The notes beneath the pieces were generated by a model. That model saw only the letters and a program-made list of their open reading frames with translations, searched no databases and was not told the origin of the DNA. Source: Nostoc sp. S13 (lineage in GTDB: Bacteria > Cyanobacteriota > Cyanobacteriia > Cyanobacteriales > Nostocaceae). From it: a DNA stretch of 64,000 bases. Positions 15,058 through 33,144 of this stretch are shown here, piece after piece. The first letter of the stretch is position 1, and the number at the start of each line of letters is the position of its first letter. The stretch lies in contig NZ_JAQYWQ010000004.1 in assembly GCF_029379315.1 (NCBI RefSeq), positions 62,001 through 126,000 of the forward strand. The letters run 5' to 3'. Made by a program: the position numbers and the translations under genes.

Positions 15058-17841
15058 ATGAAACCGAAGATTCATAAAAACAATCAGTGGCAACGCATGG
15101 GTAACAGATGGTTCATTCGTCCTTTTAAAATCCATGACTTGCCTGTTTTCATTCTCTTGGTTCTAGCGACAGCTTTTTTGTGCGTTATTACTTTTCCTGT
15201 TGCTGCAACTGTACAGACACAACATAGGGAGCATTTCACTTTCGTAAAAAGCCTTGTAAAATCTCACCCCAACCCTTTCGTTGGTAAGGAGAGGGAGCAG
15301 GAATCTTGTTTCTCATCTGGTATGTTTGCAAAACTGAGATGCTCCCCACAACATATCGCAACTCTTGGAGTGTCAATCCAAAATCCGACTGCACTAACAC
15401 AAGACTTGTTGCAACAGGGTAAAGTGCTATATGAGACAGGACAGTTTGCAGAAGCAGTTAAAGTTTTGCAACAAGCAGTTAAAAGTTATGGCAGCCAAGG
15501 CAATGAATTGCGGCAAGCTGTAGCATTAAGTAATTTGGCGTTGGCATATCAAAAAATGGGTAATTTGCCACCAGCGCAACAGGCAATTACAGATAGCTTG
15601 AAGTTGCTCGAAAAATCCTCTAATTCCCAAAATCTTCAGGTTTTGGCTCCAATTCTGGATATTCAAGGTAGTATTCAGCTAGACTTGGGACAAGCTGAAC
15701 AGGCACTTAACACCTGGCAACGTGCAGAAGTAAGCTATAAGCAATTAGGTGATCAAAATGGCATTAACCGCGATCGCATCAATCAAGCACAAGCATGGCA
15801 AGTTTTAGGATTTTACCGTCGGGGTTTGACAATCTTAACTCAATTGCAGCAGCAGTCACAATTAAAACCTAACTCTATCATAAAAGCAGTAGAATTACGG
15901 TCTTTTGGCGATGCTCTACAATTAGCCGGAGATTTGAAACAATCGCGTCAGGTATTACAGCAAAGTTTGTCAATTGCCCAAAAATTGGATTCTCCCCAGG
16001 ATGTGAGCGCTGCTTTGTTCAGTTTAGGCAATACAGCACAAGTACAGCAAGATTTTAAAGGGGCAATAGAATTCTATCAACAAGCTGGTGCGATCGCTCC
16101 TAACCCGATTAGCAAAGTTCAGGCTGAAATAAATCAGTTGAGCTTGCTAGTGAACATGGGACAAACACCAGCCGCGCAGACACTATTCCCGCAAATTCAA
16201 ACTCAACTGGCACAACTACCTCCATCTGTGACAACTATCTATGCCCAGATTAATCTAGCTCAAAGCTTGATGAAATTTGGAACTACACCTCAAGCGATCG
16301 CTCAAATCTGCGCCACAGCCTTGAAACAAGCTCAAAATTTGGCAGATCAGCGAGCCGAGAGCTTTGCCGTTGGGACTCTGGGCAGCGTATACGAGCAAAC
16401 TAAACAATGGACAATTGCCCAGAACCTCACCCAACAGGCACTGATCATAGCCCAAACAATCAACGCCCCAGATATCGCTTATCGTTGGCATTGGCAATTG
16501 GGACGCTTGTTAAAACAGCAGGGAGAGATTAAAGGCGCTATTGCCGCCTATGATACTGCGGTCAGTGAATTGCAGACTCTGCGTAGTGATTTAGTTGTTG
16601 TGAATCGAGATGTCCAGTTTTCCTTTAAAGAAAGTGTAGAACCTGTATATCGAGAGTCAGTAGAATTACTGTTACAGTTTCAGCAAACTGATCCGAGCGA
16701 AGCAACCCTAGACAAAGCTAGACAGAGGATTGAAGCACTGCAACTGGCGGCATTAGACGACTTTTTCCGGGAAGCTTGCATTAATGCCAAAACTGTTTTG
16801 CTTGACACAGTGGTAGATAAAGATAATCCTACAGCCGCAATCATTTATCCAATTATTCTGCCTTCTCAACTGCAAGTGATTGTCAAAATTCCTAAACATA
16901 CACTGCGTAATTATACAGTAAATAAGTCACAGAAGGAAGTAGAAGGTACTCTAAGACAACTTAGAGAGTATCTTTTAGAACCTGATAGGACTGAGGAAGT
17001 ACAGGCGCTCTCACAAGAAGTCTATGGGTGGTTAATCAAAGAAATTGAGTCAGATTTAAAAGAAAGTGGAGTCAAAACCCTTGTATTTGTACTGGATGGA
17101 ATATTGCGAAACGTGCCAATGGCTATACTGTATGACGGTCAGCAATATCTGGTAGAAAAATATGCTGTAGGACTCAGCTTGGGACTCCAGTTACTTGCAC
17201 CCAAACCTTTAACAGAAACAAAACTCAATGTCCTAGCTGCCGGGTTAGTGCAACCACCACAAAACTTTCAACAGGAATTTCCACCGTTACCAGAAATTAA
17301 ATCAGAATTCAACTCTATTTCTCAAGCGATCGCATCTACCACCAAGTTACTAGATCGGGACTTTAACAGCAAAAACCTAGAGAGTAAGGTCAATACCGTG
17401 CCATTTAATGTGTTACATCTGGCAACCCACGGTCAATTTAGCTCCAGTGCTGAGAATACTTTTATACTTGCTGCTGATGGGCCGATCAACGTCACGCAAT
17501 TTGATAGCTTGCTGCGCCGTCGGGATGATACTCGCTCAGAAGCCTTGGAAATGCTGGTTTTGAGTGCTTGCGAAACTGCTGCTGGTGACAATCGCGCCAC
17601 GTTAGGGCTAGCAGGAGCATCCGTAAAAGCTGGTGCCCGTAGTACTTTGGCTTCACTGTGGCATATCAGCGATAAATCTACTGCGATCTTAATTGGTGAA
17701 TTTTATCGTGAGTTAGTTAAAACTAAAGTGACAAAGGCTGAAGCTTTGCGTCGTGCCCAAGTAAAGTTGTTAAAAGATTATCCTAATTACAGTCGTCCTG
17801 GTTACTGGGCACCTTATGTTTTAGTTGGTAACTGGCTTTGA
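15058..17841 (+). CDS. TPR-CHAT domain protein
   Basis: 927 residues. A hydrophobic segment at about 28-50 looks like a signal anchor. Residues about 105-500 hold tetratricopeptide repeats (AEAVKVLQQAV, ALSNLALAYQKMGN, GAIEFYQQAGAIA). The C-terminal third is a CHAT peptidase domain with the dyad His791 in LATHGQF and Cys838 in LSACETA; the end RPGYWAPYVLVGNWL is typical. Probably acts on or with the haemagglutinin-type protein encoded 33 bp upstream, as in many cyanobacterial pairs. Residues about 70-100 (HPNPFVGKEREQESCF) come from a repeat-like GGTAAGGAGAGGGAG insertion that stays in frame. The 3' end overlaps the convergent LarA-type gene by 59 bp. Confidence 0.88.
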   Translation: MKPKIHKNNQWQRMGNRWFIRPFKIHDLPVFILLVLATAFLCVITFPVAATVQTQHREHFTFVKSLVKSHPNPFVGKEREQESCFSSGMFAKLRCSPQHIATLGVSIQNPTALTQDLLQQGKVLYETGQFAEAVKVLQQAVKSYGSQGNELRQAVALSNLALAYQKMGNLPPAQQAITDSLKLLEKSSNSQNLQVLAPILDIQGSIQLDLGQAEQALNTWQRAEVSYKQLGDQNGINRDRINQAQAWQVLGFYRRGLTILTQLQQQSQLKPNSIIKAVELRSFGDALQLAGDLKQSRQVLQQSLSIAQKLDSPQDVSAALFSLGNTAQVQQDFKGAIEFYQQAGAIAPNPISKVQAEINQLSLLVNMGQTPAAQTLFPQIQTQLAQLPPSVTTIYAQINLAQSLMKFGTTPQAIAQICATALKQAQNLADQRAESFAVGTLGSVYEQTKQWTIAQNLTQQALIIAQTINAPDIAYRWHWQLGRLLKQQGEIKGAIAAYDTAVSELQTLRSDLVVVNRDVQFSFKESVEPVYRESVELLLQFQQTDPSEATLDKARQRIEALQLAALDDFFREACINAKTVLLDTVVDKDNPTAAIIYPIILPSQLQVIVKIPKHTLRNYTVNKSQKEVEGTLRQLREYLLEPDRTEEVQALSQEVYGWLIKEIESDLKESGVKTLVFVLDGILRNVPMAILYDGQQYLVEKYAVGLSLGLQLLAPKPLTETKLNVLAAGLVQPPQNFQQEFPPLPEIKSEFNSISQAIASTTKLLDRDFNSKNLESKVNTVPFNVLHLATHGQFSSSAENTFILAADGPINVTQFDSLLRRRDDTRSEALEMLVLSACETAAGDNRATLGLAGASVKAGARSTLASLWHISDKSTAILIGEFYRELVKTKVTKAEALRRAQVKLLKDYPNYSRPGYWAPYVLVGNWL

Positions 17842-19090
17842 CACGGTACAGTATTTCGCCAGCCTTGGGCACAAGCAAGATACTTTCATGCTCACGGTTA
17901 GCCCATTCAGTGGGTAGAATAGTAGCCGGATCACGATAGTTCAAGTTATGAGCAGCACAGCGTTCAGCAGAAATACCAGTAGCTAAAGTGACGCGAATCC
18001 GCGCTTGTTCCCCTTGTATCGGATCAAAAGTACCCATACCTTTTAAGTGAGTACTATGAGCCAGCACTCCACCGGGATAGGCTTGGAATTTATCCCACTG
18101 TTTGAGGAAGTAATCTCGCACATGATAGCCAATTTGGGCTAGGATTTCGCCGTGTGTATAGCTAAACTCGGTAATATGAGGAGCATATATAATTACTTCA
18201 CCTTTGTCGGCCACTACTGGCTCTAGCTTGTACATTCCTTTAGCTGCTGTCCAAATGTCGTCATACATTTGGGGCATTACCGAAAGCACTTGTTTAAACG
18301 GCTGATCTACATATTGAATATGCAGTTTGGCTGATAATTTTGCAGCACCTTCCCAGGCTGACTCTGGTTTATCTATATATAGTCCAGCTAGCTGATTCGT
18401 TTTTGGGGCAACCACCATCGCTAGGCAAAGCTTCGGGGTAGAAATCAGGCTAGCGGCTCGGTTAATCAAGCGTCGAACTGGTGTTATTCCCGGTGTACCA
18501 ATAATTTCGTAACAGGTGATTAAAGCACCCAACCAGTGTGATAAATCAATTACTTCTTGACCACCAATACCGGGAAAAAAGTATTTATTTCCACCAGAAA
18601 AACCGACAACTTCGTGGGGAAACACCGGGCCGCAAATCATTATTAGATCGTATTCTGTTACCAGTTTGTTAACACGCACTTCAACTGCTTGATGTAGCAT
18701 TCCCCGGCTGATGTCTGCAATCTCATCTGCCGAAATTACGCCACAAGAAATAAAGGTATCCTGCTGATTCCAAAGGTGGTTAAAGATGCGAACTTTTTTA
18801 AAAGTTGTCTCTCGCTCCTCTGGTGTCACTCCTACCAAGTGATTGATTTGTTCTTGGCTCATGGGATTATGTGTACCCAGAGCGATCAAAAAATCCAGAG
18901 CCGCAACCCTTTTACCCAACTCCTGATGAAGCAATCGAAACATTTGAGGTATAGGAGCAGTGCGGGTGCCATCTGGAATTAATATTAAGATGCGCTGTCC
19001 ATCCAACTTAGGGTCTGCCAAAGCTTGATGAACTAGATCACAAACTTGCTCATCTGAAAGTGTTCCGTTAGTTATAGCCAGTGAATACAT
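17783..19090 (-). CDS. LarA-superfamily racemase/epimerase, possible D-mannonate/D-gluconate 2-epimerase
   Basis: 435 residues of the nickel-pincer LarA superfamily (DUF2088). Residues equivalent to those used by lactate racemase are all visible: Asp40 and Arg43 in PDGTR, His74 in GTHNP, His159, Lys169 in HEVVGFSGGNK and His185 in DLSHW, with the same spacings as the lactate enzyme (His to Lys 10, Lys to His 16). The superfamily includes racemases of lactate, malate and phenyllactate and a D-gluconate 2-epimerase. Its neighbours make D-mannonate and use D-gluconate, which are C2 epimers, so the epimerase role is my inference. It follows the SDR gene after 2 bp. The cofactor genes larB, larC and larE are not in the window. 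Confidence 0.8.
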   Translation of the reverse strand: MYSLAITNGTLSDEQVCDLVHQALADPKLDGQRILILIPDGTRTAPIPQMFRLLHQELGKRVAALDFLIALGTHNPMSQEQINHLVGVTPEERETTFKKVRIFNHLWNQQDTFISCGVISADEIADISRGMLHQAVEVRVNKLVTEYDLIMICGPVFPHEVVGFSGGNKYFFPGIGGQEVIDLSHWLGALITCYEIIGTPGITPVRRLINRAASLISTPKLCLAMVVAPKTNQLAGLYIDKPESAWEGAAKLSAKLHIQYVDQPFKQVLSVMPQMYDDIWTAAKGMYKLEPVVADKGEVIIYAPHITEFSYTHGEILAQIGYHVRDYFLKQWDKFQAYPGGVLAHSTHLKGMGTFDPIQGEQARIRVTLATGISAERCAAHNLNYRDPATILPTEWANREHESILLVPKAGEILYRVKASYQLKHKVPSNQDDCN

Positions 19091-19092
19091 TA

Positions 19093-19932
19093 TTAAACTC
19101 CACTGTAGATACTAAATCCACCGTCTACCGGCACAACTACCCCGTTGACAAAACTAGAACCAGAACTACATAACCAAATTAAAGTACTGAGTAATTCCTC
19201 CGGTTTTCCAAAACGTCCGGCGGGGGTATGGTCAATAATTTTTTGTCCGCGTATAGTCAAGCTTCCATCTGGATTTAAGAGTAAATCTCGATTTTGCTCT
19301 CCAATAAAAAAACCTGGCGCGATCGCATTTACTCGCAGTCCATCACCATACTTTTGGGCGAGTTCTACCGCTAGCCAGCGAGTAAAGTTATCTATCCCCG
19401 CTTTAGCGGCTGAGTAGCCAACCACGCGGCTAATCACCCGAATGGCAGACATGGAAGAAATATTCACAATACAACCGTGGGGCTGATTTCTTTCCACCAT
19501 TGCTTGACCAAAAACTTGGCTAGGCAGTAAAGTACCGAGTAAGTTGAGGCTAACTACTTCCTCAAAAGCTGCGTGTGGCATATCAAAAATAGTAGCATCA
19601 GCAGTAATTGTGGCAGCAGGAATATTACCACCAGCCATATTTACTAAGATGTCTATATTACCCCAACGCTGTATAATAGCAGCCCTAGCTATTTCTAATT
19701 GAGAGCGATCGCTAACATCTGCTACCACAGCCATACTTTCTCCACCATTAGCAGTAATTTCAGCCACTACCGCACCCGCCCGTACTTCATTGCGACCCAA
19801 AACGGCGACTCGCGCACCAGCAAGGGACAAACCCTTTGCCATAGCCGCACCAAGCACACCAGAACCGCCTGTGACTACTGCTACCTGCTCTTTCAAGCCA
19901 AAAAGTTTATTTAAAATCCAGTCTGGCATCAA
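19093..19932 (-). CDS. SDR oxidoreductase, probable D-fructuronate reductase (D-mannonate dehydrogenase)
   Basis: 279 residues. Classical short-chain dehydrogenase: cofactor loop TGGSGVLG at 21-28, NMAGG at about 98-102, catalytic Ser160, Tyr173 and Lys177 in YSAAK. The N-terminal LFGLKEQVAVVTGGSGVLG and the length match SDR-type mannonate/fructuronate oxidoreductases, which do the job of UxuB in organisms lacking the classical enzyme. Position between uxaC and the LarA-type gene fits reduction of D-fructuronate to D-mannonate with NAD(P)H. Gluconate 5-dehydrogenase-like activity is an alternative for this fold. Gap to uxaC 123 bp, to the LarA-type gene 2 bp. Confidence 0.75.
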   Translation of the reverse strand: MMPDWILNKLFGLKEQVAVVTGGSGVLGAAMAKGLSLAGARVAVLGRNEVRAGAVVAEITANGGESMAVVADVSDRSQLEIARAAIIQRWGNIDILVNMAGGNIPAATITADATIFDMPHAAFEEVVSLNLLGTLLPSQVFGQAMVERNQPHGCIVNISSMSAIRVISRVVGYSAAKAGIDNFTRWLAVELAQKYGDGLRVNAIAPGFFIGEQNRDLLLNPDGSLTIRGQKIIDHTPAGRFGKPEELLSTLIWLCSSGSSFVNGVVVPVDGGFSIYSGV

Positions 19933-20055
19933 CGACTCCCCTACTTAGTACAACATTATTTCATTATTCTCTCCGTACCTCTCCGTACCTCCGCGCCCCT
20001 CTGCGCTTCCCTCTGCGCTCCTTTGCGTTAAAATTCCCCCCTCAATTTCTAGTCC

Positions 20056-21477
20056 TTAGTCCAATTTGTAAGCAACCTTAGCAAGGTCATAAGCCAAAGC
20101 GCGAGCCATATCATACCCTTCCTCCTCCTCAACCAATCCACGCGTTACCAATCCAGCTAACCAGTTACAAGCTACTCGCCGCCAGACATTGTGACGAGCC
20201 GGAATAGAAACGAAAGCCCGTGTATCATCATTAAACCCAGCAGTATTATAAAGTCCAGCAGTTTCCATTACCTGATTGAAATAGCGCTCCATGCCATTTA
20301 CGCTGTCGTGAAACCACCAAGGTGGCCCGAGCAGTATGGTAGGATAATGACCAGCTAACGGAGCCATCTCCCGGCTTAGGGTGCTTTCATCCATGCCAAA
20401 AATGATTAAGTGGAAACGCTGATCATTACCGTAAGCTGATAACAACGGGCGCAGATTTTGAGTCCATTCTATTTTTAGCGGAATATCAGCACCTTTATCA
20501 GATCCAAACAGCTTAAATAAAGCCGGGTTATGGTTACGCATAACACCACAATGCATTTGCATCACCAAGCCATCTTCCACACTCATCCGCGCCATTTCCA
20601 TGAACATATGACCGGTAAAATGTTCTACATCACCTGGATTCAACTTGCCGGTTAATGCTCTAGCAAAGATAGCTTCTGCTTCTTGGTCAGAAAGGCGTGT
20701 GGTATAAGGTGTAGCTGCACCTTGATCGGTAGCTGTCGCGCCCATTTTTTTAAAGAAAGCTCGACGTTCTTCTAAAGCTTGCACAAAAGCAGCGTAAGTA
20801 TTAATTTCTCTACCGACAGTGCTTTCCAATTTGGTCAGATTTTCGCGCCAACCAGGAGCATCGAGGTTAACGACTGCATCTGGTCGGAAAGTTGGTCTGA
20901 TTTGAGTAAAACCTGATTCGTGGAGCGATCGCTGATTCTCTAGGTTATCACTGGCTGCATCGGTAGTACAAAGCACTTCGATGTTAAAGCGTTTGAATAA
21001 AGCACGAGGGGAGAACTGAGGCAAAGCTAACAAACCTTCCAGGTAATCATAGATATGTCCGGCATTGCCAGAGTTTAAAGGTTCATCGACACCAAAGACG
21101 TTTGTTAGTTCATCTTTCAACCACAACCCAGAGGGAGTACCCTGGAATAGATAAAAATGTTCGGCGAACAATTGCCAGATTTTGCGGTGGTCAGTTTCTG
21201 GTGGTGAACCATCACTGGTAGGTATGCCCAAAGCTTGCAGAGGTACACCCCGACTATAGAGCATACGCAAAAGGTAGTGATCAGGAATAATCAGTAATTC
21301 CGTCGGTGAACCAAAACGGGCTACTGGATTAGCTAATAAGGCTGGATCTACGTGCCCGTGTGGGCAGACTAAGGGTAGCGCAGATATGCTATCGAAAAAT
21401 TCATGGGCTAGTCGTCTTTGAACTGGTTCTGGAGAAAAGCAGCGATCGGGAGATAAACTCGGTTTTTTAGTTAACAT
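20056..21477 (-). CDS. uxaC: Glucuronate isomerase
   Basis: 473 residues, the usual length of UxaC, a metal-dependent enzyme of the amidohydrolase superfamily that converts D-glucuronate to D-fructuronate (and D-galacturonate to D-tagaturonate). Recognisable features: the N-terminal LVCPHGHVDP metal site (about 36-45), PDHYLLRMLYSRGV, the central TTDAASD, and late segments MQMHCGVMRNHN, FGMDES and WWFHDS plus ARHNVWRRVACNWLAGLV near the end. It lies downstream of the LacI-type regulator and upstream of the SDR gene on the minus strand. With inositol oxygenase encoded 2 kb away, glucuronate is the likely substrate. Confidence 0.95.
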   Translation of the reverse strand: MLTKKPSLSPDRCFSPEPVQRRLAHEFFDSISALPLVCPHGHVDPALLANPVARFGSPTELLIIPDHYLLRMLYSRGVPLQALGIPTSDGSPPETDHRKIWQLFAEHFYLFQGTPSGLWLKDELTNVFGVDEPLNSGNAGHIYDYLEGLLALPQFSPRALFKRFNIEVLCTTDAASDNLENQRSLHESGFTQIRPTFRPDAVVNLDAPGWRENLTKLESTVGREINTYAAFVQALEERRAFFKKMGATATDQGAATPYTTRLSDQEAEAIFARALTGKLNPGDVEHFTGHMFMEMARMSVEDGLVMQMHCGVMRNHNPALFKLFGSDKGADIPLKIEWTQNLRPLLSAYGNDQRFHLIIFGMDESTLSREMAPLAGHYPTILLGPPWWFHDSVNGMERYFNQVMETAGLYNTAGFNDDTRAFVSIPARHNVWRRVACNWLAGLVTRGLVEEEEGYDMARALAYDLAKVAYKLD

Positions 21478-21561
21478 AATTTTTGTTTGATTAAAATTTT
21501 TTCAAATTACTACTTCCCACTCCCCACTCCCCATCTCAGTCGTGGTCTAAATACCTGAAAA

Positions 21562-22587
21562 TTACTCTAATGCTGCACTACTACCACGCTGTACTAGAAA
21601 AGGAGATAAAACGCGGTTTTCTACAGTTTTTTCTTCTAATAAATCGAGTAACATTTGCATGGCATAGCCACCAATTTCTAACATTGGCTGGCTGACTGTG
21701 GTCAGTGCTGGCGTAACATAACAGCCCAAAGCAATACCATCAAATCCGACAAGGCTTAAACTTCGCGGTACTAAAATACCTAGTTCTTGGCAGGCTAATA
21801 GAGCGCCAATCGCCACCATATCGTTGTAACAAAATATGCCTGTAACTTCAGCAGTTAATAATTTAGAAAGCATATTTTGTCCGGTAGCAACATCGCTGAT
21901 TCTGGTATCATCCTCATCACTAATTGCAACCCAATCAGTATTTTGTGGTAGACCAGCTTCAGCAAGAGCCATTCCATATCCTTCCAGGCGCTGCTGGTTT
22001 GACCTGCTGCGATCGCCCACACCCAGATAACCAATAGCGGTGTGTCCCAGACTTATGAGATGCTCTACGGCTAATTTAGCACCTAAGCGATCGTCTATTG
22101 CTACTGAGTGAAATATTTCTGATTGATCTTCAGTCTGGCTATTAATCAAAACTGTTGGCACAGCAATTTGCGTTAGTTGTTTGGTATGCTGTTTACTAAT
22201 TCGTGAGTCCGCTACTAAGATCCCGTCCACCCGGCGGCGATGAAAAGTATCAATAGCTGCTATTTCTTCCTCAAAATTTCGGTGGGAAGCACTTAACAAA
22301 ACACTCAAACCTGCCGGTCTAGCTATCTTCTCAATTCCCTCTACTACCTCAGCGAAAAAGGGATCTGCGATAGAAGTCACCACTACACCAATGCTATTAG
22401 TACGTTTATTTTGTAAGCTTTGAGCAATAGCGTTCGGCACATAGCTCATCTCCTGCGCCAGTCGTTTAATTTCTTCTCGCACTTTCGGACTAATTAGAGG
22501 GTTATCTCGCAAAGCGCGTGAAACTGTAGAATGAGAAACACCTGCTCTTTGAGCAATATCTTCAATTGAAATTCTTCGTTTATTCAT
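21562..22587 (-). CDS. LacI-family transcriptional regulator
   Basis: 341 residues. N-terminal helix-turn-helix and hinge (about 5-60: SIEDIAQRAGVSHSTVSRAL, then YVPNAIAQSLQ) followed by a periplasmic-binding-protein-like effector domain (about 62-335; NSIGVVVTSIADPFF, GFDGIALG). First gene of a minus-strand set with uxaC, the SDR and the LarA-type gene. A perfect 11-bp-arm palindrome lies 22 bp upstream of its start codon and two variants lie before the inositol oxygenase gene, so it probably represses itself, gntK and the oxygenase gene until an inducer appears. The inducer could be inositol, a hexuronate or gluconate; the sequence does not decide. Confidence 0.92.
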   Translation of the reverse strand: MNKRRISIEDIAQRAGVSHSTVSRALRDNPLISPKVREEIKRLAQEMSYVPNAIAQSLQNKRTNSIGVVVTSIADPFFAEVVEGIEKIARPAGLSVLLSASHRNFEEEIAAIDTFHRRRVDGILVADSRISKQHTKQLTQIAVPTVLINSQTEDQSEIFHSVAIDDRLGAKLAVEHLISLGHTAIGYLGVGDRSRSNQQRLEGYGMALAEAGLPQNTDWVAISDEDDTRISDVATGQNMLSKLLTAEVTGIFCYNDMVAIGALLACQELGILVPRSLSLVGFDGIALGCYVTPALTTVSQPMLEIGGYAMQMLLDLLEEKTVENRVLSPFLVQRGSSAALE

Positions 22588-22608
22588 TTTTTATTTTAAT
22601 GTTTTTAT

Positions 22609-22632
22609 ATTAATGCACACCTGTGCATTAAT
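22609..22632. promoter_or_regulatory. Operator 1, LacI-type palindrome
   Basis: ATTAATGCACA-CC-TGTGCATTAAT: perfect 11-base arms around CC. Core TGCACACCTGTGCA at 22614-22627. It lies in the divergent promoter region between the regulator gene and gntK; the exact reverse complement of the core recurs at 23341. Confidence 0.85.
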
Positions 22633-22756
22633 ATGTATTATAGAAAATAATCATTATTTGTCAAGAGATTTAATACAACTCCCTTTTTAATGGAAAGGAG
22701 TCATGAGTCGTGAATTCTGCCTCCGTTTGAATAACTTAACTTTTCTTAAGAAAAAT

Positions 22757-23257
22757 ATGAGCAAGCAGTCAATGATTATTATCGTAATGGGTGTCTCCGG
22801 TTCTGGTAAAACCACCATCGGAAAACTGCTAGCAGACTCGTTAGAATGGGAGTTTAGCGACGCTGATGCTTTCCACTCGCCAGAGAATGTTGAGAAAATG
22901 CAGCGCGGTATCCCTCTGAGTGAAGCTGACAGGATGCCTTGGTTGCAAGATTTGCAAACAGCTATTAAACACTGGCTGGAAGAAAATCAAAATGTGGTGC
23001 TGGCGTGTTCGGCTTTAAAAAACAGCTATCGGCAATTTTTGCTATTGGATAGCGTTCGCATCAAGCTAGTTTACCTCAAAGGGTCTTATGAGTTGATTCA
23101 AATGCGGTTGCAAGAGCGTCGCAATCATTACATGAGCGAAAAACTGCTTAACAGCCAGTTTTATACTCTTGAAGAACCATTGGATACCATATCTATGGAT
23201 GTTGCACAACCACCACAGGTAATTGTCCAAAACATTAGAACGGCTTTGGGAATTTAG
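22757..23257 (+). CDS. gntK: Gluconokinase
   Basis: 166 residues from the ATG at 22757. The P-loop GVSGSGKTT is near the N-terminus (about 11-19), followed by DADAFHSPENVEKMQRGIPLSEADRMPWL, the gluconate-binding signature of GntK, and LACSALKNSYRQFL. It phosphorylates D-gluconate to 6-phosphogluconate for the pentose-phosphate or Entner-Doudoroff route. An upstream ATG at 22703 has AAAGGAG only 2 bp away, too close for normal initiation, and would add 18 residues unlike the family, so I chose 22757. It is divergent from the regulator gene and would be controlled through operator 1. Confidence 0.92.
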   Translation: MSKQSMIIIVMGVSGSGKTTIGKLLADSLEWEFSDADAFHSPENVEKMQRGIPLSEADRMPWLQDLQTAIKHWLEENQNVVLACSALKNSYRQFLLLDSVRIKLVYLKGSYELIQMRLQERRNHYMSEKLLNSQFYTLEEPLDTISMDVAQPPQVIVQNIRTALGI

Positions 23258-23340
23258 CTTATTGGTAACAACCGTAAGATTAAGATTAATCACGCTTCTA
23301 TGAAAACATCAAAGACGAAATGAAACTTAACACACATTTA

Positions 23341-23354
23341 TGCACAGGTGTGCA
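23341..23354. promoter_or_regulatory. Operator 2, LacI-type palindrome
   Basis: TGCACAGGTGTGCA, the exact reverse complement of the operator 1 core. It is 84 bp upstream of the inositol oxygenase start codon. Confidence 0.8.
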
Positions 23355-23376
23355 AGGATAAGTTCAATACAGTTTT

Positions 23377-23390
23377 TGCATACCTGTACA
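23377..23390. promoter_or_regulatory. Operator 3, LacI-type palindrome variant
   Basis: TGCATACCTGTACA, two changes from the operator 1 core. Its centre is 36 bp from that of operator 2, and it lies 48 bp upstream of the inositol oxygenase start, overlapping the probable promoter. Confidence 0.75.
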
Positions 23391-23437
23391 TAAAATAAAG
23401 TCCCATTTAACAAATCAATATCGACAAGTAAAAAGTT

Positions 23438-24334
23438 ATGTCTCAAACTCTAAATAATGCAATTGCTCAAGCTCAAAACAATCCTTTACATTCCCTAGAA
23501 GAATGGGAAAAAGACTTACTTAATCGCTATCCAGACCCAGACAGCATCGTTAAAGAAGGTAAAACTACCCAAGAGTATAGGAATTACGAAGCGCCTACTA
23601 GAGAGACGGTGAAAGAGTTCTATCGGTTAAATCATATTAATCAAACGTATGATTTTGTATTAGAGAAAAAAGAACACTTTCTGAAGTTGGATAAGAAAGA
23701 AATGTCTGTTTGGGATGCATTAGAATTTTTGAATCAATTGGTTGATGATTCCGATCCTGATACAGACTTAGATCAGTTACAGCATCTATTGCAAACATCA
23801 GAAGCGATTCGCGCTGATAATCACCCAGACTGGATGGTACTTACTGGCTTATTTCACGATATGGGGAAGGTACTTTGCTTATTTGGTGAACCCCAATGGG
23901 CCACAGTAGGCGATACCTATCCTGTGGGTTGTGCATTTTCTGATAAAATTGTTTTCTCAGAATTTTTCCAAGAAAACCCTGATTACAATAACCCTCTATA
24001 TAACACTACATATGGTATTTACGAACCGAATTGTGGTTTGAGTAATGTACACATGTCATGGGGACATGATGAGTATGTATATTACATAATGAAAAACTAT
24101 TTGCCCGAATCTGCATTGTACATCCTCCGCTATCACTCATTTTATCCTCAACATCGCGAAAATGCTTACGAATATTTGATGGATAAACACGATAAAGAAA
24201 TGTTTAAATGGGTGAAATTATTCAATCCCTACGATTTATATTCAAAGAACCCTAATCCTCCAGATTGGCAAAAATTAAAGCCTTACTATGAAGATTTAGT
24301 GGCAAAATACTTACCCAGAACCTTAAAATTATAA
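23438..24334 (+). CDS. Inositol oxygenase
   Basis: 298 residues of the myo-inositol oxygenase (MIOX) family, a di-iron HD-fold enzyme that uses O2 to cleave myo-inositol to D-glucuronate. All six iron ligands known from the mammalian enzyme can be placed: His129 (NHPDW), His140 and Asp141 (FHDMGK), His210 (MSWGHDEY), His233 (RYHSFYP) and Asp266 (FNPYDLYSK). [16 protein letters not shown] is nearly as in eukaryotes. MIOX is common in eukaryotes and patchy in bacteria. Two palindromic operators precede it. Glucuronate isomerase, an SDR and gluconokinase genes nearby supply the following steps. Confidence 0.95.
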
Positions 24335-24913
24335 ATCTCTACCATTTGCAAAAGCAAAGAATTTAAAAAATACCCTACAGATATTAGAACTGATTGGGGT
24401 TACTTTTTCTAATGATGAATTACAACTCTTCAGCAAGCCTAAACCGAGCGGAATATTTTGTAACAATGAAATAACTTCTTTGACTTTGTAAAGTTCGATA
24501 AACGGGGATCATATTTGGAATAATGCAGGTTAAACTAAAATTAATGTCTAAACCAAATACAAACTCACAACTTTGACAAGATTTAAGACCAGGCTCTACT
24601 AATTTTAGTTAAAAGCTGTTTTTCGCCTACGCACTTCCAAATTTAATTTCACAAAAACATGTGAGTTTTTGACGTAGTGTAGTGCTCATAGTTTTGCTTT
24701 AAAAAACAAAACATTTAAATTTAGGGGAATTAATAGCGCTAACTCCAATCAGGTAACAATATAAGACCTTTGAGATGAGTTGGAATTGCCAAAAGCAGCA
24801 GTACTGCTAGGTTATATCTGAAGTTTTCAGACCTAGCTAATATTGTGATAAATTGGCAAATTTATATTCTACTGACCTTTTTGAATCAAATTTAAATCCG
24901 TTGTTAGAAATAA
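24335..24913. other. Gene-free spacer between inositol oxygenase and the sugar-binding protein
   Basis: About 580 bp, AT-rich, no credible gene on either strand and no recognised repeat family. It must hold the end of the oxygenase transcript and the promoter of the transporter set. I see no copy of the LacI-type palindrome here, so the transporter may be controlled separately. Confidence 0.5.
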
Positions 24914-25924
24914 ATGAATATGAAGAGAATTGCGCTCATAGTTGGGATATTAGGTTTCGCGGTTGTTGGTTGCACAAATGGCGCTCAAAATGACAACACT
25001 GCTACTAATACTACTAACACCGCTACTAATATAAGTGCAAAGAGTCAGGTTAGTACTCCAAATAGAAAATTGCAAACAATCGGTGTTGCTCTTGGTGACT
25101 TGGGCAATCCCTTTTATAATGCAGTGCAGAAGGGGGCTGAGACAGAAGCCAAGAAAATCGGGGATAATATCAGAGTTAGTGCGGTTTCCAGTGCTTTTGA
25201 CCTGAACCAACAAACCAATCAAATCGAAAATTTTACGGCTGCAAATACTGACCTAATTATCCTCAGCGCTGTTGACAAAAAAGGAGTTAAACCAGTTATT
25301 GACCAAGCAAGGCTTGCAGGTAAAATTGTCATTGCAGTAGATTCAGCCGTTGATGCAGATGTGGATGCGATGATTAGCTCCAACAATACCCAAGCGGGAG
25401 AGATTGGTTGCCAATATATAGCCGATCGCATCAAAGGTCAAGGTAGTGTAGTCATTCTCAACGGGACTCCGATGGACTCAATCAATCAGCGAGTCAGTGG
25501 CTGCGAGAAGTCATTGTCCAAATATCCGAATATTAAACTCATCTCTAAAGAGCAAAACGCTGAAGGGACTAGGGATGGAGGACTGAGAGTCATGAGCGAT
25601 TTACTCACAACCTTTCCCAAAATTGATGCCGTTTTTGCCACTAACGATCAAAGCGGTGTGGGCGCAGATTTAGCAGCTAGACAAGCAAGACGTAAAGAAT
25701 TTTTTATTGTTGGGGTTGACGGTTCACCAGATGCAACCAAAGCAATGGAAGATAAAGATGGTCTATTTGCTGCAACTGCTGCTCAAAATCCCGCAGGAAT
25801 GGCCCAAAAAGCGGTTCAGATTGGCAACGATATCATTCAGGGGAAAAAACCCGACTCATCTAACATTCTAATTCCAGTCAACTTGGTTACTAGAGAGAAT
25901 CTGAGCAACTACAAAGGTTGGTAA
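24914..25924 (+). CDS. Sugar ABC transporter substrate-binding lipoprotein 1
   Basis: 336 residues. Signal peptide with lipobox AVVGC (Cys20), a Thr/Asn-rich linker, then a ribose-binding-type periplasmic fold (about 45-335): GVALGDLGNPFYNAVQKG, IILSAVDKKGVKPVIDQA, FATNDQSGVGADLAA and FIVGVDGSPDA. This class binds ribose, xylose, inositol or similar. It is followed 51 bp later by a close paralogue and then by ATPase and permease genes of the same class. In this neighbourhood myo-inositol or a related polyol is a reasonable ligand, but that is inference. Confidence 0.88.
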   Translation: MNMKRIALIVGILGFAVVGCTNGAQNDNTATNTTNTATNISAKSQVSTPNRKLQTIGVALGDLGNPFYNAVQKGAETEAKKIGDNIRVSAVSSAFDLNQQTNQIENFTAANTDLIILSAVDKKGVKPVIDQARLAGKIVIAVDSAVDADVDAMISSNNTQAGEIGCQYIADRIKGQGSVVILNGTPMDSINQRVSGCEKSLSKYPNIKLISKEQNAEGTRDGGLRVMSDLLTTFPKIDAVFATNDQSGVGADLAARQARRKEFFIVGVDGSPDATKAMEDKDGLFAATAAQNPAGMAQKAVQIGNDIIQGKKPDSSNILIPVNLVTRENLSNYKGW

Positions 25925-25975: not shown

Positions 25976-27046
25976 ATGAGTTTTAGGAGATATATGAATG
26001 TGAAAAAGATTACGTTCACTTCTGGTGTTACGCTTCGCGTAATCGCAGCTAGCCTACTAGGTATTATTAGTGGTAGTCTTGTTGGCTGTACAAATGGTTC
26101 TGCTGATCGCAACACTGCTACTAACACTGATACCAAACCGGCTACGAATATAAGTGCAGAGAATAAGACTGCCACTGGGAATACAAAATTACGATCAGTT
26201 GCCTTCACTGTTGGTGATTTAAGTAATCCTTTCTTCGTGCTCATGGGACAAGCAACTGAGGCAGAGGCGAAGAAAATTGGCGGTAAGGATGTCAATGTTA
26301 GCGTAGTTTCCAGTGCCTACGACCTCAACCAACAAGCCAATCAAATTGAAAACTTTACTGCTGCCAATACTGATATAATTATCGTAAATGCTGCTGATAA
26401 AAGTGGCATTAAGCCAGCAATTGAAAAAGCGAAACTTGCAGGCAGAATTGTCATTGCAGTAGATACTGGTGCTGAAGGAGGTGTGGATGCCACCATTACT
26501 ACTAATAATGTCCAAGCTGGAGAAGTTAGTTGCAAATATATTGCTGACCGCCTCAAAGGGAAAGGCAATGTAGTAATAGTTAACGGGCCGCCAGTGGACT
26601 CAGTGATTCAGCGAGTTAGTGGCTGCGAGAATGTATTATCTAAATATCCCGATATCAAAATCCTTTCTAAAAACCAGAATGCAGAAGGTAGTCGGGATGG
26701 AGGACTCAGAGTTATGACTGATTTGCTCACAACCTTTCCGAAAATTGATGCTGTTTTTGCCATCAATGATCCGAGTGGAGTCGGCGCAGAACTAGCAGCT
26801 AATCAAGCACAACGTAAAGATTTCTTTATTGTCGGGGTTGATGGTGCGCCAGAAGCAATAACTGCGATCGCTGCTAAAGATGGTTTATATGCGGCAACTG
26901 CTACTCAAAATCCGCGAGGGATGGCCGAAAAAGCAGTTCAGGTTGGTAACGACATCTTAAATGGGAAAAAACCAACTAGTTCTACCATTTTGATTCCAGT
27001 TAAGTTGGTCACAAAAGATAATGTCAGCACAGAAAAAGGCTGGTAA
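25976..27046 (+). CDS. Sugar ABC transporter substrate-binding lipoprotein 2
   Basis: 356 residues, a tandem paralogue of the preceding protein. Lipobox LVGC after a longer N-terminal region, then the same fold: FTVGDLSNPFFVLMGQA, IIVNAADKSGIKPAIEKA, FAINDPSGVGAELAANQAQ, FIVGVDGAPEA. Identity with paralogue 1 looks well above half over the binding domain. Some binding-pocket neighbours differ (for example ALGDLGNPFYNAV against TVGDLSNPFFVLM), so the two may bind different sugars. The ORF start at 25976 (MSFRRYMNVKK) could instead be the ATG seven codons later; MNVKKI at 25994 resembles the MNMKRI start of paralogue 1. Confidence 0.88.
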   Translation: MSFRRYMNVKKITFTSGVTLRVIAASLLGIISGSLVGCTNGSADRNTATNTDTKPATNISAENKTATGNTKLRSVAFTVGDLSNPFFVLMGQATEAEAKKIGGKDVNVSVVSSAYDLNQQANQIENFTAANTDIIIVNAADKSGIKPAIEKAKLAGRIVIAVDTGAEGGVDATITTNNVQAGEVSCKYIADRLKGKGNVVIVNGPPVDSVIQRVSGCENVLSKYPDIKILSKNQNAEGSRDGGLRVMTDLLTTFPKIDAVFAINDPSGVGAELAANQAQRKDFFIVGVDGAPEAITAIAAKDGLYAATATQNPRGMAEKAVQVGNDILNGKKPTSSTILIPVKLVTKDNVSTEKGW

Positions 27047-27513
27047 GTAATAAAAATTGTGAATTTGCAATTTTAAATTATGTCTGATGTGAATCCTTTG
27101 GTGCATTTGTAAAGTTTTTGCACATACCTATAAAGTACGGCGGTTTTCACTTAAATTAATACAAAACCTAACCCCCAGCCCCTTCCCTACAAGGGAAGGG
27201 GAGTAAGATTCAAAGCCTCTCCCCTTTTAGGGGAGAGGAATGGAAGTGAGGTCAAAACTCTATGTACTGCAACCGAGAACCGTTATGTATCTGCATCAGC
27301 GTCAAGTCTGAGTGCCGATTTATAGCACTCAGAAATTTCAGAGACAGTCTCTATCAACTAACGTTAACAACGAAGTATGAAAATATCTCTTCCCCACTCC
27401 CTATTTTCAAACTACTAATCAGCTTTTAAAACATGACTTTGTGATCAGAATATGAGTTGATTAATTCCTAACTCACAATTGCGAATTTTAAATAGTTTTT
27501 ACAGGAGATGTTC
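27047..27513. other. Gene-free spacer with G+C-rich hairpins
   Basis: About 27170-27262 holds two stacked hairpins of the CCCCTTCCCT-ACA-AGGGAAGGGG and CTCTCCCC-TTTT-GGGGAGAG kind, a common dispersed repeat of cyanobacterial spacers. A half-site CATACCTATAAA at 27123-27134 resembles operator 3 but lacks a good second arm. Otherwise nothing recognised. Confidence 0.55.
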
Positions 27514-29070
27514 ATGACAACAACTATTGAAACCTCATTTCCTGATGCACCAAGTAGCACCCCGGTGTTAGAAATGCAAGGGATTACGAAACGATTTCAT
27601 GGTGTATCTGCGCTCCAAAATGTTAATCTGACGATTTATCCGGGAGAAGTTCACGCCCTCATGGGTGAAAACGGAGCAGGCAAAAGCACATTGATGAAAA
27701 TCCTGGCTGGGGCTTACATTGCCGATGAAGGAGAAATTCGCATCAATGGTCAACCCTTAAAAATTACCGATCCGGCGACAGCACGCAAGTCGGGTATTAA
27801 TCTCATTTATCAAGAGCTGAATGTTGCACCTAATTTAACCGTTACCGAAAATATGTTTATGGGTAGCGAGTTACAGCGAGGTCAGTTTTTAGACCGCAAA
27901 GGGATGCTACTGGAAGCAGAGGAAGTGCTGGAAAGCCTTGGAGCCAATTTTACAGCGCAGACTATAGTTGGTACTTTGTCAATCGCCGAACAGCAGCAAG
28001 TAGAAATTGCGCGGGCACTGAAAGACAAAAGCCGTGTTTTGGTGATGGATGAGCCAACAGCAGCACTATCTGACCGTGAGACTGAGCATTTGTTTGAGGT
28101 AATTCGCAAACTGCGGAATGATGGCATTGCGATTATTTACATCAGCCATCGTATGGAAGAAATCTATGCCTTAGCTGACCGGATTAGCGTGTTGCGTGAT
28201 GGTCAATATATTGGCAGTCTCACACGCAGTGAAATTTCTCCACAGCGATTGGTACAGATGATGGTCGGTCGCTCCATGCAAGACTTTTATGAACATCAAC
28301 GGCAAATGAATCCTGGCCCAGTCGTGCTGGAAGTCAGAAATATGAGCGACGCGCGTAAGAAGATTGAGCCAGCTAGTTTTAAAGTTCATGCTGGAGAAAT
28401 TGTTGGTTTAGCAGGGCTGGTTGGTGCAGGACGCACAGAACTATCCCGGCTGATTTTTGGTGCTGACCGCAAGGCCAGTGGTGAAGTATTCTTGAATGGC
28501 AAAAAACTGGAAATTAATACGCCCAGTGATGCTATTGCTGCGGGAATTGGCTACGTCCCGGAAGACCGCAAAGACCAAGGTTTATTTCTGGAGATGAGTG
28601 CCCGGAAGAATATTGCCATCAACACACTCAAGCAGGATGCAAAGGCTGGAATTGTTAACTGGCCTTCAGTTAATCGGCTATCAACAGACGCGGTGGAAAA
28701 CTTTAATATCCGCCTGGCCAATTTGGAAATTAGAGCGCTCGATCTTTCTGGTGGTAATCAACAGAAGCTACTACTAGCGCGTTGGTTAGCCATAAAGCCA
28801 AGAGTATTGATGTTAGATGAACCGACACGCGGCGTAGATATCGGTGCCAAAAGCGAAATTTACCGAATTATGAGCGAATTGGCAGCGCAAGGTGTTGCTA
28901 TTTTAATGGTTTCCAGCGAACTATCGGAGATTGTCGGCATGAGCGATCGCGTCTTAGTGATGCGAGAAGGACAGTTGGTAGGCGAACTGGATGGCAGTCT
29001 TGGTCAAGAAATCACCCAAGAAAAGATTATGCACTATGCAACTGGAGCATCGGAGGTATTAGCATCATGA
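27514..29070 (+). CDS. Sugar ABC transporter ATP-binding protein, RbsA type
   Basis: 518 residues with two ABC domains. The first has Walker [10 protein letters not shown] and signature [15 protein letters not shown] with [12 protein letters not shown]. The second has the degenerate P-loop [12 protein letters not shown] and signature [15 protein letters not shown] with [16 protein letters not shown], as in RbsA/XylG/MglA. It energises uptake of the sugar delivered by the two binding lipoproteins. I start at the ATG at 27514: an AGGAG lies 6 bp before it, whereas the ATG at 27508 directly abuts that site. The stop overlaps the permease start as ATGA. Confidence 0.92.
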
Positions 29071-30065
29071 GTCAGACAGTCAGACCGCCTACCAATAAAT
29101 TAGACAACAACCCCGTATCCTGCAACCAGAAATCAATTAGCACTTTCCTGCAAGTTGCGGGTATTCTGCCAATCCTAGTAATTATCTGCATCTTATTTGC
29201 ATTCCTTTCTCCCAACTTCCTGACTGGCGGTAACATCGTTAATATCTTGCGTCAGGCATCAATCAATATTGTGCTGGCGACAGGAATGACCTTTGTGATT
29301 CTCACCGGAGGTATTGACCTTTCAGTTGGGTCAATCTTAGCTGTTTCTGCCGTAGTTGCGTTGCTGGTATCGCTACTGCCAGCTTTAAGTTGGGCGGCCG
29401 TACCTGCTGCTTTGCTGGCAGGATTGCTTTTAGGCTTAGTCAATGGCGCTCTCATCACCTTCTTGGATGTGCCACCTTTTATTGTTACCTTGGGTTCACT
29501 GACTGCCTTGCGGGGTGTAGCCTTTTTGGTTGCCAAGGGGACAACGCTGATTAACCGGGACATCAATTTTGCTTGGGTGGGTAATAGTTATGTCGGCCCT
29601 CTGCCGTGGCTAGTAATCATTGCGCTACTGACCGTAATCGCTAGCTGGTTTGTGTTGCGACAAACTGTTTTAGGAGTGCAGATATATGCTGTCGGTGGTA
29701 ACGAGCGGGCAGCGAGATTAACTGGAATTAAAGTTAATCGTGTATTGCTATTCGTCTATGGTATTAGTGGATTACTCGCAGGTTTAGCCGGAATCATGAG
29801 TGCTAGCCGTCTTTATAGTGCTAGTGGCGTATTAGGTCAAGGTTATGAATTAGATGCGATCGCAGCTGTTATTCTTGGTGGAACCAGCTTCACAGGCGGT
29901 ATTGGTACCATTGGCGGCACACTTTTAGGTGCATTAATCATTGCTATTCTCAACAATGGTTTAACTCTGTTGAACCTCTCTTACTTCTGGCAATTAGTCG
30001 TCAAAGGACTAGTAATTATTTTGGCAGTTATGATTGACCGACTCCGCAGACGTTCCAGACGTTGA
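29067..30065 (+). CDS. Sugar ABC transporter permease, RbsC type
   Basis: 332 residues, about eight to ten membrane helices. Family features: [22 protein letters not shown] near the N-terminus, [30 protein letters not shown] and the cytoplasmic loop [15 protein letters not shown], followed by [19 protein letters not shown]. This is the single permease of ribose-type importers, acting as a dimer with the RbsA-type ATPase whose stop codon overlaps its start by 4 bp (translational coupling). Confidence 0.92.
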
Positions 30066-30170: not shown

Positions 30171-31571
30171 ATGTCTTCCACTACTGTTCGTCGTAAATCC
30201 AACACGTTTTATGTCATTTTGATTGCTGGTGCTGCTGCCCTCGGCGGCTTTCTGTTCGGTTTTGATACCGCAGTTATCAACGGCGCGGTTTTATCTATAG
30301 CAAAAGCTTTTAACATCAGTAGTTGGGTAACAGGGCTAGCAGTGTCCCTAGCGTTGCTGGGTTCTGCGGTAGGAGCTTTCTTTGCCGGACAGATTGCAGA
30401 CCGTTATGGTCGAGTCAAGGCAATGGTGGTCGCTTCGGTGTTATTTACTATCAGTGCCATTGGCTCTGGGCTTGCCTTCAGTATCTGGGATTTTATTTTT
30501 TGGCGACTATTAGGTGGGATTGGAATTGGCGTTGCTAGCGTCATCGCCCCAGCTTACATTGCGGAATGTTCTCCCACTCATTTGCGCGGAAGGTTAGGAT
30601 CTCTGCAACAATTAGCGATCGTAGTCGGAATTTTTGTCGCCTTATTAAGCGACTACTTTATCGCTGTGTCAGCAGGTTCAGCAGACTCGCCATTTTTGTT
30701 TGGGGTTGCAGCCTGGCGCTGGATGTTTTGGACAGCAGTCCCACCAGCAGTATTCTACGGGATGGTGGCTTTTACAATTCCTGAATCTCCCCGTTACTTA
30801 GTTGCCAAAGGACGAGAACCAGAAGCTGCTAGCGTTTTGACCAAGATTTTGGGGGGTGATGTGCTGCCAAAAATCGAAGAAATTCGGCAGACAGTGCTTC
30901 GTGAACGCCAGCCTAAGTTTTCTGACATGTTGGGTAGAAGTGGCGGACTCCTGCCCATTGTTTGGATAGGAATAGGCTTATCTGTATTACAGCAATTTGT
31001 TGGTATTAATGTAATCTTCTACTACAGCAGCGTTTTGTGGCGGGCAGTCGGGTTTTCCGAAAAAGATTCCCTAACAATCACAGTGATTACAGGAGCCGTC
31101 AACATTATTACAACATTGATTGCGATCGCCTTCGTGGATAAATTTGGTCGCAAGCCCTTGCTCATACTAGGGTCGATTGGCATGACCTTGACCTTGGGGA
31201 CGATGGCTTATCTTTTTGGCAATGCTCCCCTCGATGCTGCTGGCAACCCCAATCTCACCGGAAGCGCAGGTACAGTCGCTCTCATCGCAGCCAACCTTTA
31301 TGTGTTTTGCTTCGGTTTCTCCTGGGGGCCAGTGGTTTGGGTGCTGTTAGGAGAAATGTTTAATAACAAAATTCGAGCTGCTGCACTTTCAGTTGCTGCT
31401 GCCATGCAATGGGTTGCCAACTTCGTTATTTCCACAACATTTCCTCCCATACTGCAATATTTCGGTCTAGGTTCTGCCTATGGACTCTATACAATTGCCG
31501 CAGCGACCTCATTCTTTTTCATTCTCTTTTTTATTAAAGAAACCAAAGGAATTGAGTTAGAAGATATGTAA
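30171..31571 (+). CDS. MFS sugar porter
   Basis: 466 residues with about 12 membrane helices. Sugar-porter signatures are present: GGFLFGFDTAVINGAV in helix 1, DRYGRVKAM after helix 2, ECSPTHLRGRLGSLQQL, PESPRYLVAKGR in the central loop, QQFVGINVIFYYSSVLW in helix 7, DKFGRKPLL, and SWGPVVWVLLGEMF in helix 10. The family imports hexoses, pentoses or inositol with protons. Its place in the inositol/glucuronate island makes it a second uptake route, possibly for inositol, but substrate cannot be read from sequence. It lies 105 bp after the ABC permease gene, separated by heptamer repeats. Confidence 0.92.
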   Translation: MSSTTVRRKSNTFYVILIAGAAALGGFLFGFDTAVINGAVLSIAKAFNISSWVTGLAVSLALLGSAVGAFFAGQIADRYGRVKAMVVASVLFTISAIGSGLAFSIWDFIFWRLLGGIGIGVASVIAPAYIAECSPTHLRGRLGSLQQLAIVVGIFVALLSDYFIAVSAGSADSPFLFGVAAWRWMFWTAVPPAVFYGMVAFTIPESPRYLVAKGREPEAASVLTKILGGDVLPKIEEIRQTVLRERQPKFSDMLGRSGGLLPIVWIGIGLSVLQQFVGINVIFYYSSVLWRAVGFSEKDSLTITVITGAVNIITTLIAIAFVDKFGRKPLLILGSIGMTLTLGTMAYLFGNAPLDAAGNPNLTGSAGTVALIAANLYVFCFGFSWGPVVWVLLGEMFNNKIRAAALSVAAAMQWVANFVISTTFPPILQYFGLGSAYGLYTIAAATSFFFILFFIKETKGIELEDM

Positions 31572-32785: not shown

Positions 32786-33144
32786 GTGACCTTAAACCTC
32801 AACTCAAAATATGTAATTTTAACAAAGTATGTTCAGTTTAATTCCCCTGCCTCTATAGGCAGCAGGAATTGAACGCCTAATTCAAATCCCCGTCACAAAA
32901 CGTAATTGCGAATTGCGAATTGCTTTAATGCTGATTAGCTGATAATCTAATACAGTTCAGTTAAGGGTTTCTTCCTTCTCTTCCTTTGCGTTCTTTGCGT
33001 CCTTAGCGGTTCGTTAAAAAATTAACTTCGACAAAGAATTAAGCCTTAACTCAAGCGTATTAGCTCATAATCTCGAAGCTTTTGTTCGACTGCAATCTCT
33101 TTAGTTACAAAGTCAAAATTCAACCATTTTCAAATAATAAGCCA
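32786..33144. other. Gene-free spacer with a dispersed repeat
   Basis: About 32951-33072 is a repeat beginning ACAGTTCAGTTAAG and containing CTTCTCTTCCTTTGCG and GCGGTTCGTTAAAAAA, shared with 46704-46985 and partly with 49732-49775. The rest probably contains the porin promoter. A possible in-frame upstream start for the porin at 33082 is considered unlikely. Confidence 0.6.

Follow-up and report, generated by a model that had tools for sequence, protein, structure and literature searches.

HrmA of the Nostoc hormogonium-regulating locus is a predicted D-mannonate/D-gluconate 2-epimerase that probably completes a route from inositol to 6-phosphogluconate

A stretch of 64,000 nucleotides (the window) from Nostoc sp. 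S13 (NCBI RefSeq assembly GCF_029379315.1, contig NZ_JAQYWQ010000004.1, positions 62,001 to 126,000) was examined in the present study. It contains the hormogonium-regulating (hrm) locus of symbiotic Nostoc, including six intact open reading frames (ORFs) at 17783-24334, four on the minus strand and two, hrmK and hrmE, on the plus strand (Table 1). One of the six, hrmA, encodes a protein of the LarA superfamily, which we predict to be a D-mannonate/D-gluconate 2-epimerase dependent on the nickel-pincer nucleotide (NPN), and which probably closes a route from inositol to 6-phosphogluconate within the locus. In this route HrmE would convert myo-inositol and O2 to D-glucuronate, HrmI would isomerise D-glucuronate to D-fructuronate, and HrmU would reduce the latter to D-mannonate. 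HrmA, with NPN supplied by LarB, LarE and LarC, would then pass a hydride to the cofactor and back, inverting C2 to give D-gluconate, which HrmK would phosphorylate to 6-phosphogluconate for entry into the oxidative pentose phosphate pathway. HrmR is predicted to repress both hrmRIUA and hrmE at the palindrome TGCACACGTGTGCA, with the binding of a uronate-like compound to HrmR as the inducing event. The reactions are assigned from protein families, and we infer their operation in this organism, the source of the inositol, and a link between the flux and the end of hormogonium development.

Identification of the hrm locus

The hrm locus of Nostoc has been reported as hrmA-U-I-R / hrmK-E, frtA1A2BC, a sugar permease, mviM and a porin (PMC5987646). 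The genes of the window and their order are equal to those of this published figure legend; the set is therefore the hrm locus, and the LarA-type protein is HrmA. The locus of Nostoc punctiforme is credited to Cohen and Meeks 1997 and Campbell 2003 (as cited by PMC5987646 and PMC6702271), and HrmA and HrmU were discovered in 1997 as products of genes through which plant extract suppresses Nostoc hormogonia (PMC5987646, PMC6702271). In the passages searched, HrmA is given as ‘unknown’ in the 2018 genome paper (PMC5987646), its reaction is left open there and in two further papers (PMC10095879, PMC6702271), and hrm appears solely in the reference lists of three others (PMC9620832, PMC8386757, PMC12825409); ‘hrm’ is absent from the text of PMC9307615. 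No paper naming the reaction of HrmA was found among the titles, beginnings of abstracts and passages searched, few of them from subscription papers. The present locus shares with that of N. punctiforme its genes, their order and the linked sugar-transport genes; what differs is that HrmA is here given an enzyme class and a predicted reaction, and that an operator sequence is read from conservation.

A first-pass annotation of the window, made from the sequence alone, had proposed that the genes at 17783-24334 supply a complete inositol to 6-phosphogluconate route in chemical order. The gene identities were borne out by the ORFs and family models. The chemical order holds along hrmI-U-A; hrmK and hrmE lie on the opposite strand with the LacI-family gene between. 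The unit extends past 24334 to 34758, taking in genes for an ABC-type sugar transporter, a permease, a Gfo/Idh protein and a porin. As an interpretation the proposal was thus right in part, with the chemistry supported and the published hrm identity missed. That identity adds to the interest of the case, since it reveals the LarA-type protein as the unexplained HrmA.

Family assignments of the partner enzymes are based on model scores and solved relatives. HrmU scored 386 bits against the NCBIfam model PRK08277 ‘D-mannonate oxidoreductase’ (cut-off 281) and 201 bits against the solved short-chain dehydrogenase/reductase (SDR) 4WUV, and HrmI exceeded the cut-off of the UxaC equivalog (486 against 387), its solved relative 2Q01 aligning at 454 bits. 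HrmK exceeded the cut-off of TIGR01313 (156 against 114), the GntK-type kinases 4EUN and 1KNQ being its solved relatives. HrmE scored 367 bits with the Pfam model of myo-inositol oxygenase (MIOX), without an NCBIfam match, and 267 bits with the solved relative 2HUO; all six of what we take to be the iron ligands, from their positions in the mouse enzyme, are kept in that alignment.

A scan of public genomes with HrmA recovered 26 loci, 24 of them from Nostocales. The genes hrmR-I-U-A occur together in 22 of the 26, including those of N. punctiforme NIES-2108 (L034) and the Peltigera membranacea cyanobiont 210A (L035), and 21 of the 22 have hrmK alongside, the contig of the remaining one ending at that point. 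In Dendronalium (L027, 2166-16856) hrmR-I-U-A-K-E and the frt genes are codirectional, and there is an overlap between hrmK and the end of the hrmA match; elsewhere the two arms are divergent. Two genomes of the genus to which the window belongs carry decayed hrm loci: G217 (L046) has a whole hrmR beside remnants of hrmI, hrmU and hrmA, with hrmK-E-frt elsewhere, and G237 (L045) keeps hrmK-E-frt and has no HrmA match genome-wide at E <= 1e-30.

HrmA as a predicted hexonate epimerase

HrmA matched the Pfam domain Lar_N (PF09861) at 79.6 bits (cut-off 23.3), and those of its listed relatives to which a source gives a name are called ‘lactate racemase domain-containing’, ‘nickel-dependent lactate racemase’, DUF2088 and similar. 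Its best solved relative is 4NAR, with 35.8% identity over 385 aligned residues. This structure is GntE2 of Thermotoga maritima, and conversion of D-mannonate to D-gluconate has been demonstrated for both GntE2 and GntE1 (PMC7583248). A profile of 27 HrmA-type proteins scored 289 bits against GntE2, 64 against LarA (2YJG) and 43 against Mar2, on which grounds lactate and malate racemase were rejected as assignments.

Alignment with GntE2 placed its NPN-binding residues R41, K164 and H180 at R43, K169 and H185 of HrmA, and its catalytic residues D38, H73, H154 and K287 (D38, H73 and K287 numbered by our own mapping) at D40, H74, H159 and K284. The earlier statement that six LarA catalytic positions are conserved was correct, seven having now been checked. 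Conservation was surveyed over 87 loci, comprising the 26 from the public-genome scan, 60 non-cyanobacterial loci and L040. H159, K169, H185 and K284 are kept in all 87, H74 in 86, and D40 and R43 in each of the 86 loci covering both positions. E160, which corresponds to the substrate-loop residue E155 of GntE2, and W280 are kept in 86 and 87 of the 87 loci, respectively, as in the hexonate-epimerase signature. The exceptions are a contig-edge fragment (L032), in which D40 and R43 are not covered and position 74 is Y, and L040, in which E160 is replaced by R. The signature reported for groups 18-20, of which 19 and 20 are the D-gluconate 2-epimerases (GntE), consists of E-V/S in the loop, a W near the catalytic Lys, and A/V in helix 14 (PMC7583248). 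HrmA fits it at E160-V161 and W280; in helix 14, where the signature column is not fixed, N348-V349-A350 of GntE2 aligns with G341-V342-L343 of HrmA. L040 (from genome G188) is a distant cyanobacterial LarA homologue with 30% identity, whose substrate probably differs from that of HrmA because Arg takes the place of the loop Glu.

It is unlikely, in our estimation, that the last two steps run in the reverse order, with HrmK phosphorylating D-mannonate and HrmA epimerising 6-phosphomannonate to 6-phosphogluconate. Such a 6-phosphomannonate route has been shown in extracts of Lactobacillus suebicus, its genes not being known (PMC6978723), and the KM of the Thermotoga enzymes for free D-mannonate is high (17 mM for GntE2 and 120 mM for GntE1; PMC7583248). 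However, the nearest studied relative, GntE2, does use free D-mannonate (PMC7583248), GntK of E. coli is reported to be inactive on mannonate (PMC6978723), and the acidic E160 kept in the substrate loop of HrmA would not be expected to favour a phosphate.

HrmA-type loci outside cyanobacteria

Among 400 genomes of Chloroflexota (in the broad sense, the phylum of a Thermomicrobiales metagenome-assembled genome (MAG), G263, that carries locus L033), 62 had an HrmA-type gene at E <= 1e-100. Neighbouring genes were surveyed in 62 loci, namely 60 of the 64 matches plus L033 and L036, with G487, G356 and G338 left out. Within 9 kb of the HrmA-type gene we found a mannonate-forming SDR in 36 loci, 6-phosphogluconate dehydrogenase (6PGDH) in 12, UxaE in nine, UxaC in seven, a gluconokinase of either kind in five and Eda in one. 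These counts are lower bounds, some of the contigs breaking off shortly beyond the gene. With 1-2 gnd genes per ~5 Mb, chance alone would be expected to place 6PGDH beside the gene in less than one of 62 loci (a rough estimate with no control). MIOX was found within 9 kb in none of the 62 non-cyanobacterial loci; neither were UxuA and 2-keto-3-deoxygluconate (KDG) kinase, a weak negative with the divergent protein of G263 and two PfkB proteins of the source genome as references. For 22 of the 26 loci lacking the SDR, 106 neighbours were listed, and a scan of 10 of these, from eight loci, showed an S9 peptidase, polyphosphate kinase, FIST, LytR and poly-A polymerase, a neutral result.

One further arrangement was found in a MAG of Deltaproteobacteria / Myxococcota (L036, 1-17310), where UxaE, IolM, IolN, IolO, a mannonate-type SDR, an HrmA-type protein (56% identity), an FGGY kinase and 6PGDH are encoded together; the best model for the kinase is gluconokinase (246 bits, below the cut-off of 649). 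Judged by its gene content, L036 is a full inositol operon, in which predicted Thermotoga-style inositol chemistry is continued by the SDR-HrmA-kinase lower half and ends in an enzyme consuming 6-phosphogluconate.

These neighbourhoods bear on a further alternative, in which the substrate of HrmA is some related acid, such as one derived from galacturonate, and its inversion at C2 makes an inhibitor of hormogonia rather than serving a feeding route. The published hypothesis is indeed that the hrm genes yield a metabolite inhibitor and do not serve carbon catabolism, with a galacturonate-like compound as the ligand of HrmR (PMC5987646), and both uronates are substrates of UxaC-type isomerases. 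We regard this alternative as improbable, as the set includes hrmE and hrmK, which fit glucuronate and gluconate, and HrmA-type genes outside cyanobacteria often stand beside 6PGDH and uronate genes. Moreover, UxaE was not found within the Nostoc loci, to which this search was confined, and there is therefore no visible path from galacturonate to fructuronate in them.

In a tree of HrmA-type proteins, from which L032 was left out as too short a match, the branches of 4NAR and L040 were very long, and only the part comprising Nostoc, L033 and L083-L086 was therefore used. The Nostoc-type proteins form one group of 24 rows (100/99), which together with L033 and four genomes of its phylum makes up a set of 29 rows (100/99); L033 is adjacent to the Nostoc group at 94/80, below the starred level. 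The L033 locus encodes UxaC, SDR and HrmA in the Nostoc order, with 64, 66 and 74% identity, respectively. These relationships are most simply explained by a transfer of the I-U-A block, presumably in the direction of Nostoc.

Cofactor genes and the dehydratase route

The source genome (7.23 Mb, 93.2% complete) encodes LarB, LarC (both domains) and LarE above the NCBIfam cut-offs, each on another contig than hrm. The first-pass annotation had held mannonate dehydratase and KDG kinase to be absent from the gene set. Searches for UxuA, which matched five of 14 controls, found none in the source genome and none in 242 genomes belonging to its order, and the 24 Nostocales carriers of HrmA gave none either; completeness is not stated for the 26 HrmA-carrying genomes searched, one of which has only 5.0 Mb. 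Two enolase-family proteins of the source genome lie above the family cut-off, and a third match (L082, 22.7 bits) lies below it. The two are MenC (490, over a cut-off of 259) and a DgcA-like protein (240, under a cut-off of 400); UxuA or ManD elsewhere in the genome was rejected on the UxuA search and these two proteins. The gene of the DgcA-like epimerase (L080) adjoins a DUF1611 gene. No clear KDG kinase was seen either: the three PfkB proteins are a ribokinase, a hydroxymethylpyrimidine phosphate (HMP-P) kinase and L010, which scored 100 against a cut-off of 400 with the KDG kinase model, and a PfkB protein as KDG kinase was rejected with L010 still without an assigned substrate. The gene for 2-keto-3-deoxy-6-phosphogluconate (KDPG) aldolase (eda) is present on another contig. 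An ordinary Ashwell route, running through UxuA or ManD encoded elsewhere to KDG kinase and Eda with HrmA unrelated to it, is very improbable given these searches, even with Eda present and L010 without an assigned substrate.

Strength of the assignment

Homology, residues, cofactor genes, independent operons and the failure to find UxuA together give good support to the predicted conversion of mannonate to gluconate by a LarA-type epimerase, followed by gluconokinase. Several observations weigh against the proposed route. HrmA is only 36% identical to GntE2 and scored 196 bits against NF052594 (group 18 ‘putative hexonate epimerase’), below the cut-off of 500; filing it in NCBIfam group 18 was rejected, and for both reasons HrmA is, by sequence, a separate branch near GntE2 and not a proven GntE. 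HrmA also departs from GntE2 at two other substrate positions, having A283 for G286 and G341 for N348, and the KM of GntE2 of 17 mM for D-mannonate leaves room for another native substrate. Outside cyanobacteria, an HrmU-type SDR was not seen in 26 of the 62 loci, and one of 26 HrmA-carrying genomes, G263, has a UxuA match above the Pfam cut-off (115 bits against an NCBIfam cut-off of 191). A larC match occurs in Synechococcus elongatus too, so that the presence of cofactor genes does not point to HrmA specifically. The gene hrmE accompanies hrmR-I-U-A in 16 of 22 loci, three contigs ending too early, and is missing from three of the 19 with enough flank (L021, L026 and L029, ~5 kb beyond hrmK). 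In L037, hrmA stands without further hrm genes across flanks of ~10 kb. Because of these four loci and the published galacturonate-like ligand of HrmR, the choice of inositol as the starting compound is the part of the scheme with the least certainty, less than that of the lower half. By eye, hrmA of L037 adjoins a transposase-like ORF pair.

A conserved candidate operator

The palindrome TGCACACGTGTGCA was found (<=2 mismatches) within 300 bp upstream of hrmR in all 22 loci and of hrmE in all 16, and its copies in the window are candidate HrmR sites through which repression would act. The copy at hrmR lies directly past a promoter-like arrangement read by eye on the minus strand, TTGACA (22664-22659), 16 nt and TATAAT (22642-22637). 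A weaker copy before hrmE (23377-23390, three mismatches) was also read by eye. A 16-base form (<=3 mismatches) matched twice in the window, both times at the hrmR/hrmE promoters; shuffled sequences gave a mean of 0.22 matches, and two were reached in 2 of 100. No copy of the palindrome was seen in the ~1.5-kb flanks of larB, larC, larE or eda. Two Nostoc loci (L013 and L016) have matches to an IolM-like dehydrogenase, and their hrmR operator lies farther upstream than in other loci.

Comparison with known systems

A close parallel is the pectin operon of Thermotoga maritima, aldH-pelB-gnd-uxaRED-gntEK (PMC3750489), which shares with the hrm locus a lower half of reductase, C2 epimerase and gluconokinase, with the same cofactor and catalytic residues in GntE2. 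The upper half differs, starting from galacturonate with UxaE in Thermotoga and from inositol oxygenase in Nostoc, and Thermotoga also keeps uxuA and kdgK (PMC3750489). The Thermotoga-type inositol pathway (IolM, IolN, IolO) likewise leads from inositol to a hexuronate, and in L036 feeds the SDR, HrmA-type protein, kinase and 6PGDH, whereas Nostoc has the one-step, O2-dependent MIOX; the hexuronate is tagaturonate in the former and glucuronate via MIOX. The galacturonate pathway of L. suebicus resembles the proposed route in leading from mannonate to 6-phosphogluconate without a dehydratase, but in that organism phosphorylation precedes epimerisation and the genes are unknown (PMC6978723). A route of this kind had been put forward as new in the first-pass annotation. 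Its kind is already known, because Thermotoga provides a precedent both for the enzyme activity and for the lower route; what appears to be new is the assignment to HrmA and the feeding of the route by MIOX.

A concrete reaction for HrmA puts a name to every step of the hrm pathway. It suggests glucuronate or fructuronate as the natural ligand of HrmR, and the predictions are that inositol or a uronate may serve as the plant signal and that there is a dependence on nickel and larBCE. If true, it would also make it likely that a nickel-pincer enzyme takes part in switching development in a plant symbiosis. Glucose-6-phosphate dehydrogenase is inactivated by light. A tentative and rather doubtful extension is that host inositol or uronate, converted through HrmA to 6-phosphogluconate, joins the oxidative pentose phosphate pathway at a point below that enzyme, and that the supply of reductant is itself the signal ending hormogonium development, favouring nitrogen-fixing filaments. 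Symbiotic development would in that event depend on a nickel cofactor.

Gene content of the locus

Positions of all features are given in Table 1. For hrmK, the listed start at 22703 competes with an in-frame ATG at 22757, and the matches of relatives start at residue 2 to 21. The genes frtA1 and frtA2 are in tandem, and each matches the counterpart of the other in relatives at about 54-63%.

Table 1 Features of the hrm locus in the window, with predicted functions and the basis of each assignment
Feature	Position	Strand	Assignment and basis
hrmA	17783..19090	-	LarA-superfamily protein, predicted NPN-dependent D-mannonate/D-gluconate 2-epimerase; ORF, Pfam/NCBIfam, profile, residues
hrmU	19093..19932	-	SDR, D-mannonate oxidoreductase (fructuronate reductase); PRK08277
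hrmI	20056..21477	-	Uronate/glucuronate isomerase UxaC; family models and 2Q01
hrmR	21562..22587	-	LacI-family repressor; family, name from gene order of PMC5987646
Candidate HrmR operator at hrmR promoter	22614..22627		TGCACACGTGTGCA with 1 mismatch
hrmK	22703..23257	+	GntK-type gluconokinase; start 22703 or 22757
Candidate HrmR operator upstream of hrmE	23341..23354		1 mismatch to TGCACACGTGTGCA
hrmE	23438..24334	+	Myo-inositol oxygenase (MIOX); Pfam and 2HUO
frtA1	24914..25924	+	Sugar-binding protein; family scan, name from order
frtA2	25976..27046	+	Second sugar-binding protein; family scan, name from order
frtB	27508..29070	+	Sugar ABC ATPase; family scan, name from order
frtC	29067..30065	+	Sugar ABC permease; BPD_transp_2 158 bits, name from order
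Sugar permease (‘glucose permease’ of hrm figure legend)	30171..31571	+	Sugar_tr 371 bits
mviM	31739..32785	+	Gfo/Idh/MocA oxidoreductase; family scan and published order
oprB	33082..34758	+	Carbohydrate-selective porin; OprB 123 bits

On the other side of the locus, a TPR-CHAT gene (15058-17841, plus strand) overlaps the 3' end of hrmA tail to tail by 59 bases. The HrmA of the window runs about 15 residues past the conserved end at 416-421, and a query with the CHAT protein found no counterpart in the loci of the 26 relatives; because of these two observations the junction may be a recent rearrangement. Upstream of the TPR-CHAT gene, 10297-15024 (plus strand) encodes a repeat protein of 1575 aa that by eye is filamentous haemagglutinin-like.

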